Source of the DNA: Candidatus Zhuqueibacterota bacterium
GTDB taxonomy: Bacteria; Zhuqueibacterota; Zhuqueibacteria; Thermofontimicrobiales; Thiofontviventaceae
Assembly (NCBI GenBank): GCA_016931935.1
Contig: JAFGDW010000369.1
Location: 1 to 64,000 of the forward strand
DNA length: 64,000 bases
Direction of reading: 5' to 3'
Shown here: piece after piece, positions 16,817 to 40,547 of the stretch
Position numbering within the stretch: position 1 is the stretch's first letter
Layout of the letters: each line of letters begins with the position of its first letter
Translations under genes and position numbers: made by a program
The notes under the pieces: generated by a model
The model's database searches: none
What the model saw: only the letters and a program-made list of their open reading frames with translations
What the model was told of the DNA's origin: nothing

Positions 16817-16864
16817 CTGAATGTCAATAAGTTAAGATTAAATTATGGTATTCGTGGAAAATTT

Positions 16865-16931
16865 CACCCTTCGACTTCGCTCAGGGTGAAGTCTGCGACA
16901 GCTTCATACTGAGCGAAGTCGAAGTATGAAG
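16865..16931. repeat. Hairpin-pair element, copy 1 (TTCGACTTCGCTCAG family)
   Basis: CTTCGACTTCGCTCAG (16869-16884) / CTGAGCGAAGTCGAAG (16909-16924), each arm inside its own local stem. Confidence 0.85.
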
Positions 16932-17027
16932 CTTGACAAGACTTTTGATACAGCCCCGCAGGTCAGAATTAGATGGATGTTCGAAGGTGGGTATATAATT
17001 TCCACTACTATTTTGAATAGGATTGAA

Positions 17028-30682: not shown

Positions 30683-30720
30683 TTCGACAGGCTCAGCATA
30701 CGTTCACTGAGCCTGTCGAA
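30683..30720. repeat. Inverted repeat TTCGACAGGCTCAG / CTGAGCCTGTCGAA
   Basis: 14-bp perfect arms with 10-bp spacer. Confidence 0.9.
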
Positions 30721-30800: not shown

Positions 30801-30828
30801 GTAGTGGACGTACATGTACGTCCACTAC
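30801..30828. repeat. Perfect 28-bp palindrome GTAGTGGACGTACATGTACGTCCACTAC
   Basis: Direct reading; equals its own reverse complement. Confidence 0.95.
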
Positions 30829-37793: not shown

Positions 37794-38837
37794 ATGGCAA
37801 TTGTTCGATCACCACGCAATCCTATCATTTCACCCGCGGATGTAAAACCGAGCCGCGACGATTTTCAGGTCGTCTGTGTGTTTAACGCTGGCGTCATGCG
37901 ATTTCAAGATGAAGTTATCTTGGCGCTGCGAGTTGCCGAGAAGCCTATCAATTCCAATCCGGATGTTGAACTGGTGCCTGTTTATGATGTGACGGCTGGC
38001 AACGTTGTTGTCAAACAATTTGACCGCAATGATCCCAAAATTGATGTCTCGGACTCGCGCTTCGTCCGAACACCAACAGAGCAATACTTGAGTTCGCTCT
38101 CTCACATCCGGTTGGCGCGGAGTAAAAACGGCGTACAATTCGAAGTTGAAGCCGCACCGGCGCTGGCTCCGGCTAATGAATATGAAATCTATGGCATTGA
38201 GGACCCGCGCATTACATCTATCGATGATAAGTACTATATCAGCTACAGCGCCATATCGCCGATGGGCTCGGCGATATGTCTGGCTTCGACTCACGATTTC
38301 AAAACGTATCAGCGGCACGGGGTCATGTTGTGCCCGGATAACCGGGATGTGGAAATCTTCCCGGAACGAATTCATGGTAAATATTTTGCGCTGCACCGGC
38401 CCAATTCGGGCGAGTACGGCCGGCGTGATATCTGGATTGCCGAATCGACCGATCTTGTCAACTGGGGCAATCATCGCTGGGTCATGGGCGCGCGGGAAAA
38501 TAGCTGGGATAACGGCCGCGTCGGCGGCAGCGCGATTCCATTTCGCGTCGACGGCGGTTGGCTGGAAATCTATCATGGCGCCAGTAAATCCGATCGTTAC
38601 TGCCTGGGCGCCGCGCTGCTGGATGCAAACGAGCCCTGGAAAGTATTGGCGCGAAGCAAGACGCCAATCATCGAGCCGGAGATGGATTATGAAACGCAAG
38701 GTTTTTTCGGGAATGTCATTTTTAATTGCGGCGCACTCGTGGAAGATGGCAAGGTGAAACTATATTACGGGGCCGCAGACACGCACATGTGTTATGCGGA
38801 AATTAAGTTGGAAGAAATTATTAAAAATCTTGCATGA
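37794..38837 (+). CDS. Glycoside hydrolase/phosphorylase family 130-like
   Basis: PRNPIISPADVKP, VFNAGVMRFQDEVILALRVAE, YGIEDPRITSIDDKYYISYSA, WLEIYHGA, KLYYGAADTHMCYAEI. Confidence 0.9.
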   Translation: MAIVRSPRNPIISPADVKPSRDDFQVVCVFNAGVMRFQDEVILALRVAEKPINSNPDVELVPVYDVTAGNVVVKQFDRNDPKIDVSDSRFVRTPTEQYLSSLSHIRLARSKNGVQFEVEAAPALAPANEYEIYGIEDPRITSIDDKYYISYSAISPMGSAICLASTHDFKTYQRHGVMLCPDNRDVEIFPERIHGKYFALHRPNSGEYGRRDIWIAESTDLVNWGNHRWVMGARENSWDNGRVGGSAIPFRVDGGWLEIYHGASKSDRYCLGAALLDANEPWKVLARSKTPIIEPEMDYETQGFFGNVIFNCGALVEDGKVKLYYGAADTHMCYAEIKLEEIIKNLA

Positions 38838-38865
38838 TGATGGTGGTTGTTGTACGCATTAAGAG

Positions 38866-39023
38866 CCTATCCGAAAACCTATTAGAAATGGTTTTGAAAA
38901 CCGCTGAAGCGGTTGGTCGATTCGTTGTGTTGTAAAAACACCCGGATTAATCCGGGTGCTCTGACAAGAATTGAACAAATAGAGCCGTTTCAACGGCTTT
39001 CCGTACGTGGGTTTTCGGATAGG
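38866..39023. repeat. 158-bp multi-branched palindromic element (possible MITE/REP-like)
   Basis: Outer inverted repeat CCTATCCGAAAACC (38866-38879) / GGTTTTCGGATAGG (39010-39023) enclosing three further perfect stems. Confidence 0.85.
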
Positions 39024-39056
39024 TACTACGCTGAAAATTATGACTAAAGGATTGAG

Positions 39057-40547
39057 TTGATGAAAAGCAGTCTGGACTGGATCGTTGTTGCCATTTACGC
39101 TATCGGGATGCTCGCTATCGGCGTCTATTTTCAACGCAAGACGAAGACAACCGACGATTACATGCTGGGCGGCCGGCAAATGAAGTCATGGAGCGTTGGT
39201 CTGTCATTGTTTGCCACGCTGTTCAGTGCCATCACCTATTTGGCGATGCCGGGCGAAATGATCAAACACGGCCCGATGATGTGGAGCAAAATTGCCAGTC
39301 TGCCGCTTGTTTATGGCGTGGTCGGTTGGTTCTTAATCCCGCATATCATGAAACTTCGGGTGTCGAGCGCATACGAGTTGCTGGAGCTGCGGCTCGGCGT
39401 GAAAATCCGCACACTGGCGTCGCTGTTCTTTCTCACCATGCGCTTGATCTGGATGGCCGTTATCATTTTTATGGTCGCGGAAAAAGTAATGGTCCCCATC
39501 ATGGGCTGGTCGGACGAAACCGCGATCTGGGTCAGCGTGGCGCTTGGCGTCATTACCATCGGTTACACCTCACTCGGGGGATTGCGCGGCGTTGTGTTAA
39601 CAGATGTCATTCAGAGTTTCATTCTGTTTGGCGGAACGATTTTGGCGATTATTCTCATCACCAGTCACTTCGGCAGCGTCGCGGCGATTATTCCAACCGA
39701 ATGGCCCGGTCACTGGGCGGAATGGAAATTTTTTGATATGAATGCCAGAGTGAGTTTTATGACAATGAATATCACCATATTCGGCATGTACGTATGCACC
39801 GCCGGGTCGGACCAGATGTCGATTCAACGCTATTTATCCACGCGCGACGCCCGCGCCGCGCGCAAGGCGTTCCTGACATCATTGCTTGCCAACGGAATAG
39901 TTTACATCATGCTGGCTGTGCTGGGAATCGCGTTGATGTCCTATTATCAGGCCAATCCGGGCTTGCTCATGAATGGCGAGTCGTTGACGTCAGCCGCTGA
40001 TTCACTCTTGCCCTATTACATTGTCAATGGTTTTCCGGTGGGAATCTCCGGCCTTGTTTTTTCCGGCCTGCTTGCGGCGGCGATGTCCAGCCTCTCGTCG
40101 GGCATTAACTCATCCAGCATGGTCGTGATTAACGATTTTATTATTCGCTTCAAACAAGATAAATTATCAGAAGAGTTGCAGGTAAAATGGGCGCGCGTTA
40201 TTTCGGTAATCATCGGTTTCGTTGCCATACTTTTAAGTCTTGTCATGGGAAATGTGAAAGGCAACCTGATCGAAATTACCTTCAAAACCGTGAACCTGTT
40301 GGTCGCGCCGCTGTTTGTACCGTTTTTTATGGCGCTGTTTGTCAAGCGATCGAGTGAGCGCGCGGTCGTGATCGGAACGATCGCCAGCGCGTTGACGGCG
40401 ACATGTATCAGCTTTTCCAGCGAACTGTTTAATAGTGTCATTTCATTTTTATGGATAATTCCGGCGTCGTTTGCTGTCGGGGCGTTGACAAGTTATCTGT
40501 TGAGCTATGTCTTGCCGAAGCCAACAACCGGAATTGCAGGGAATTAA
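39057..40547 (+). CDS. Sodium:solute symporter family protein
   Basis: TTDDYMLGGRQMKSWSVGLSLFATLFSAITYLAMPGE; GLVFSGLLAAAMSSLSSGINSSSMVVINDF. Confidence 0.92.
   Translation: MMKSSLDWIVVAIYAIGMLAIGVYFQRKTKTTDDYMLGGRQMKSWSVGLSLFATLFSAITYLAMPGEMIKHGPMMWSKIASLPLVYGVVGWFLIPHIMKLRVSSAYELLELRLGVKIRTLASLFFLTMRLIWMAVIIFMVAEKVMVPIMGWSDETAIWVSVALGVITIGYTSLGGLRGVVLTDVIQSFILFGGTILAIILITSHFGSVAAIIPTEWPGHWAEWKFFDMNARVSFMTMNITIFGMYVCTAGSDQMSIQRYLSTRDARAARKAFLTSLLANGIVYIMLAVLGIALMSYYQANPGLLMNGESLTSAADSLLPYYIVNGFPVGISGLVFSGLLAAAMSSLSSGINSSSMVVINDFIIRFKQDKLSEELQVKWARVISVIIGFVAILLSLVMGNVKGNLIEITFKTVNLLVAPLFVPFFMALFVKRSSERAVVIGTIASALTATCISFSSELFNSVISFLWIIPASFAVGALTSYLLSYVLPKPTTGIAGN

Follow-up and report, generated by a model that had tools for sequence, protein, structure and literature searches.

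A probable composite MITE in Candidatus Zhuqueibacterota: an IS5-type frame around a three-hairpin, REPIN-like core

In the genome of a Candidatus Zhuqueibacterota bacterium, we identified a 164 bp intergenic element that we interpret, with a probability of roughly 0.83, as a composite (nested) MITE, in which an IS5-type outer frame surrounds a three-hairpin core and two known kinds of genomic parasite are thereby nested. The element occupies positions 38863–39026 of the window, the 64,000-nucleotide stretch of DNA that was analysed, and was delimited by its terminal-repeat pair and by a second copy elsewhere in the host genome. It lies downstream of a gene for a GH130 glycoside phosphorylase (37794–38837, plus strand; PF04041, 210 bits) and upstream of a sodium:solute symporter (SSS) gene on the same strand (39060–40547, ATG at 39060; PF00474, 138 bits). 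The gap between the GH130 stop codon at 38837 and the SSS gene is filled almost wholly by the element, leaving 25 and 33 bp. The open reading frames of the element include no credible gene.

The original prediction described a 158 bp element at 38866–39023, which is present, although its extent was slightly underestimated. The proposed 14 bp perfect terminal inverted repeat, CCTATCCGAAAACC, was confirmed (38866–38879 against 39010–39023, 14/14), and extends to 17 bp, the left arm being the IS5-type end GAGCCTATCCGAAAACC (38863–38879, plus strand; an exact match to the end family) and the right arm GTACCTATCCGAAAACC on the minus strand (39010–39026), with two mismatches. The bases directly inside the left arm, TATTAGAAATGGTTT (38880–38894, plus strand), are common to the copies on host contigs C59 and C285. 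The three internal stems are likewise where they had been placed. The left REP-like hairpin is AACCGCT-GA-AGCGGTT (38899–38914; 98.4% of alignment cells paired), and the right one, AGCCGTT-TC-AACGGCT (38983–38998), is inverted relative to it (92.1% of cells paired, with changes on both sides in three pairs). Between them, the 20 bp palindrome CACCCGGATTAATCCGGGTG (38939–38958) forms the centre of a longer palindrome, TTGTAAAAACACCCGGATTAATCCGGGTGCTCTGACAA (38930–38967), with approximately 84% pairing and both-side changes in 10 of 17 pairs among nine copies; in the sister copy it is perfect over 38 nt.

The 158 bases of the original prediction fold with a minimum free energy (MFE) of -37.5 kcal/mol as DNA (z -7.3) and -68.2 kcal/mol as RNA (z -7.7), and none of 200 shuffles equalled either value, which excludes a chance origin of the stems; by our own estimate, 500 bp would contain about 5e-4 perfect inverted pairs of 14 bp by chance. 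The lowest-energy fold retains the first hairpin and the central stem and partly re-pairs the right hairpin, so that a four-stem clover is not the only predicted fold.

The ends of the element assign its outer layer to a known kind of element. Within two mismatches, GAGCCTATCCGAAAACC ends occur 20 times in the host genome and 108 times in G006, a relative from the same order, compared with three occurrences of a reversed-pattern control in each search. In the host genome, in G006 and in several phyla, these ends form inverted pairs 62–191 bp apart with TTA or TAA outside. The MITEs so framed in G006 and in several phyla measure 68–182 bp, with TTA/TAA usually present on both flanks. The same ends, with TAA on both sides, bound an 898 bp IS in an Oculatellaceae cyanobacterium (L111), whose two overlapping ORFs, DUF4096 (PF13340) and DDE_Tnp_1 (PF01609), both exceed the curated cut-off of NCBIfam NF033580 transpos_IS5_3. 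Additionally, G006 contigs C202 and C306 start in the 3' end of a transposase, ...HLACADITRRATEVFG-stop (EVFG-stop), with the stop codon inside the terminal repeat; the bases GTT TTC GGA TAG, encoding the transposase C-terminus (VFG-stop), form part of that repeat. The outer layer is hence the frame of an IS5-type MITE: its ends are also those of an IS5-family IS, and the terminal repeat contains the last transposase codons. The conservation of this end across phyla likely reflects the fact that part of it encodes the transposase C-terminus.

On two further G006 contigs, C276 and C392, this end stands as far from the contig start as it does on C202 and C306. All four contigs (L062, L185) begin just inside an IS5 end, which suggests that a multicopy IS5 was probably collapsed or lost at contig breaks. 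The host draft genome (381 contigs, 92% complete) yielded no IS5 transposase with such ends.

The window copy is flanked by candidate target-site copies TAA (38860–38862) and TAC (39027–39029), the left one following the TTA/TAA rule of the end family and the right one being imperfect relative to it; the sister copy has TTA/TTG. At the level of the family, 33 of 68 distinct end pairs have the same three bases outside both ends, and 38 have TTA/TAA (TWA) on both sides. The insertion that gave the window copy is probably old, given the imperfect TAA/TAC flanks and the lack of a detectable cognate transposase in the draft genome. An empty-site comparison was precluded by divergence, the nearest GH130 relatives being approximately 42% identical or less and too divergent for synteny. 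Like IS5-family MITEs (NF033580 transpos_IS5_3), the element has IS5-family ends, belongs to an end family with 3 bp TTA/TAA flanks and 62–191 bp between paired ends, is non-coding and has dispersed copies; unlike them, its interior is an unrelated dispersed hairpin repeat, and one frame is used by several different cargos.

The proposed search of the host genome for other copies revealed a second full copy on a different contig (G000:C59:14205–14375), 91% identical over query positions 6–176, with similarity stopping near the element ends, as well as partial copies of the interior only. The host genome contains two copies of the composite that are clearly full and one that is degenerate, and both ends are clearly preserved in two only. 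We considered whether two independent insertions could have produced the arrangement, with solo IS5 ends or deletion remnants flanking a resident core by chance. The core does exist without this frame at other loci, but the C59 copy, at an unrelated place, has the same spacing, ends, subterminal bases and core, which indicates that the composite was duplicated as a unit, and core identity is 0.76 within the window copy's frame compared with 0.64 and 0.57 between frames. We regard separate insertions as highly improbable.

From the nature of the ends, the best-supported route of mobilization is transposition in trans. The outer layer would represent the two ends of an IS5-family IS of the two-ORF (DUF4096 + DDE) type, inserting at TTA/TAA, and the cargo a lineage-specific REPIN-like repeat (a central palindrome between two inverted REP-type hairpins) that was presumably captured by the frame. 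A DDE (IS5) transposase, probably once present in the host genome and now lost or unassembled, would have recognized the ends, and most likely moved the whole 164 bp unit at least once within that genome.

The core (38895–39002) spans approximately 100 nt, comprising a hairpin, ~25 nt, a palindrome of up to 38 nt, a further ~25 nt and an inverted hairpin. Our covariance model of the core, R1, matched it with 105 bits (E 1.9e-18), a score obtained with the window sequence itself among the training sequences; this locus is the only R1 match in the window. Alignment of nine core copies showed 86.7% paired cells compared with 81.1% in shuffles, and 14 of 31 core pairs had changes on both sides, a figure reached by none of 500 shuffles; the pairing score dropped clearly when the pairing was slid. 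These results support conservation of the core stems, without amounting to proof alone, as they derive from nine sequences and 500 shuffles with relatedness uncorrected. Compensatory substitutions had been proposed as a sign to look for in aligned copies, and a single copy lacking them as the opposing outcome; what we found is a second copy together with 14 changed pairs.

Covariation and a strong predicted fold would also be expected of a structured regulatory RNA (an attenuator, stabilizer or processing site) under selection in a GH130–SSS mRNA, and a location with same-strand genes on either side, 25 and 33 bp off, is compatible with that function. However, hairpin DNA elements give covariation too, copies of the element adjoin unrelated genes, and the element is nearly symmetric and similarly structured on both strands. 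No terminator-like tail is present on the plus strand, and no Rfam family reached its gathering score in the window; at a relaxed threshold, the best match (E 0.015) was to a microRNA model and fell far below the cut-off. The structured RNA that had been envisaged between the two genes is therefore unsupported, and we judge it decidedly improbable. A terminator or promoter role was rejected separately, the sole matches being at shuffle expectation and on the minus strand. For the composite MITE, insertion between the GH130 and SSS genes was most likely neutral or mildly polar; were the two genes cotranscribed, their mRNA would contain the hairpins.

R1 matches were found in at least 11 of 12 genomes of the order and, among the matches listed, in at least two of 48 class-level genomes beyond the order, with one weak match; both counts are lower bounds, 64 candidates per genome having been scored. 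The core thus appears specific, or nearly so, to this bacterial order among the related genomes searched. The central palindrome also serves as a usable marker, occurring at 11 places in the host genome with up to three mismatches compared with none for the control. Single AACCGCTGAAGCGGTT 16-mer hairpins, at the same tolerance, showed no excess over the control (125 versus 116) and are unusable as a marker alone. Tandem core-like units with a spacing of 168–171 bp and alternating hairpin orientation were observed at positions 2350–2911 of one G007 locus (L229, G007:C447), and several gene gaps of another genome (L228, G001:C320) contain relatives of the central palindrome next to GACATGYCGTGCCTGACGGCA and GTCGCATTAGCGACGATATGTC hairpins.

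In REPINs, or REP doublets, two inverted hairpins enclose a structured spacer, show compensatory changes and lie between genes, sometimes in tandem (PMC3116915). The core shares this architecture of inverted hairpins at fixed spacing with covariation, and differs in its three hairpins, its long central palindrome, its lack of a RAYT (REP-associated tyrosine transposase) neighbour and the terminal repeats of a DDE-type transposon around it. One could argue that a RAYT moved the element, which would then be a REPIN whose structure the outer repeat merely extends: the doublet, structured spacer and compensatory changes are those of a REPIN, the core is dispersed intergenically and forms tandem clusters in G007, and Y1_Tnp domains do occur in the host genome and its relatives. 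Against this, the 29 loci around Y1_Tnp matches (10 genomes, 82 kb) contained no hairpins of the core type, and the core model found one good neighbour only (L341). The five Y1 matches of the host genome include two, the strongest, that are interrupted by stops, and a third that is partial and adjoins a stop. Furthermore, the outer repeat has an existence independent of this cargo and a DDE transposase of its own. Mobilization by a RAYT thus seems unlikely, and the Y1-type link put forward in the original prediction was not borne out. As the defining RAYT association was sought and not found, we do not file the core as a REPIN. The interior is a REP/REPIN-like dispersed repeat and not a shrunken IS5, so that of the proposed label, a non-autonomous MITE/REP-like element, the first term applies to the ends and the second to the interior.

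The core is also found apart from its IS5-type frame. Cores without these ends occur at no fewer than nine other loci in the host genome, and terminal repeats of at least three other kinds, one of them IS701-type, enclose the same core. On host contigs C302 and C250, it is framed by TTCTACTTTGTCAnATTA with YTAR flanks (TTAG/TTAG and CTAA/CTAA, respectively); both ends of this type of frame are degenerate on C319, and the right end is recognizable on C306, C147 and C269. That right end is a repeat family in itself in the host genome (42 occurrences versus three for the control), and on C135 it includes the final codons (NLTK-stop) of an IS701-type transposase, a near-threshold call on a partial protein with one end found (NF033540, 145 bits against a cut-off of 150). 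The IS701-family MITE frame resembles the present case in holding the same core in the host genome, in TTCTACTTTGTCA frames with YTAR flanks, but differs in transposase family and target, and the window copy does not lie in such a frame. Cores are enclosed by GGCGTCAACCTAAG repeats in G005 and by a fourth terminal-repeat pair in G007.

Frames also hold other cargos. The GAGCCTATCC frame carries an unrelated cargo built from TTGCCTGAGCCTGTCGAAGGC hairpins in the host genome and a TCATTCCCGC-type cargo in G006, and a KSB1 record (L083) has the same MITE cargo as G006. Across several phyla (L067–L146), GAGCCTATCCGAAAACC frames were observed around many cargos, often hairpin-rich, of the GTCATTGCGAGCGAAGC, GTCATTCTGAG and CAGGCTTTATGCCTG types; a folding z below -2 was obtained for 33 of 68 framed interiors, those of G000 and G006 among them. 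Within the window itself, a possible second framed element lies at 1231–1455, with inverted ends ACCAACCTTGCGAAGGTTT and AAACCTTCGCAACGTTTGT (89%, 187 bp apart) and a TTCGACAAGCTCAG hairpin inside (1326–1373). TTCGAC..CTCAG-type hairpins, a motif that is also a cargo of GAGCCTATCC frames in the host genome, are present at 16852–16941 and 30683–30720, and a perfect 28 bp palindrome, GTAGTGGACGTACATGTACGTCCACTAC, at 30801–30828.

With frames assigned by eye, core identity was 0.76 within frame 1, that of the window copy (a set that includes C31, with end remnants only, and C285, with subterminal bases only), and 0.81 within frame 3; frame 2 was more mixed (0.68), and values between frames ranged from 0.52 to 0.64. 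The most economical interpretation is a small number of core captures, each composite then spreading as a unit. More tentatively, and with rather less than even confidence, we suggest that the core is an independent parasite that has repeatedly hitchhiked into the frames of unrelated DDE transposons (IS5, IS701 and at least two others in the order), cargo and frame being freely recombining modules and not one element lineage.

The six diagnostic strings from the ends or core had no occurrence in the literature searched. The nearest precedents are GTAG/CGTC-tagged REPs, for which some REP dimers lie inside longer palindromes (PMC3733652), and BrickBuilt of Porphyromonas gingivalis, a MITE with a tandem minisatellite inside (PMC4596501). 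The former set a precedent for REP dimers within a larger palindrome, whereas the enclosing sequence here is a transposon frame common to other cargos; the hairpins of the element bear no GTAG or CGTC tag, their adjoining bases being TTTTGA/GGTC and ATAG/TTCC. BrickBuilt similarly holds another repeat class within a MITE, but its cargo is a tandem minisatellite, and that of the present element a dispersed three-hairpin repeat with copies elsewhere.

REP-like hairpins and MITEs are the two main classes of small bacterial repeat, and this element is a concrete example of one physically enclosed in the other; one hairpin cargo occurs in the frames of different transposases, and one frame surrounds different cargos. 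The spread of hairpin repeats that lack a dedicated transposase was raised earlier as a question for CGTC REPs (PMC3733652); if the arrangement described here is general, such repeats could be dispersed within MITE frames.
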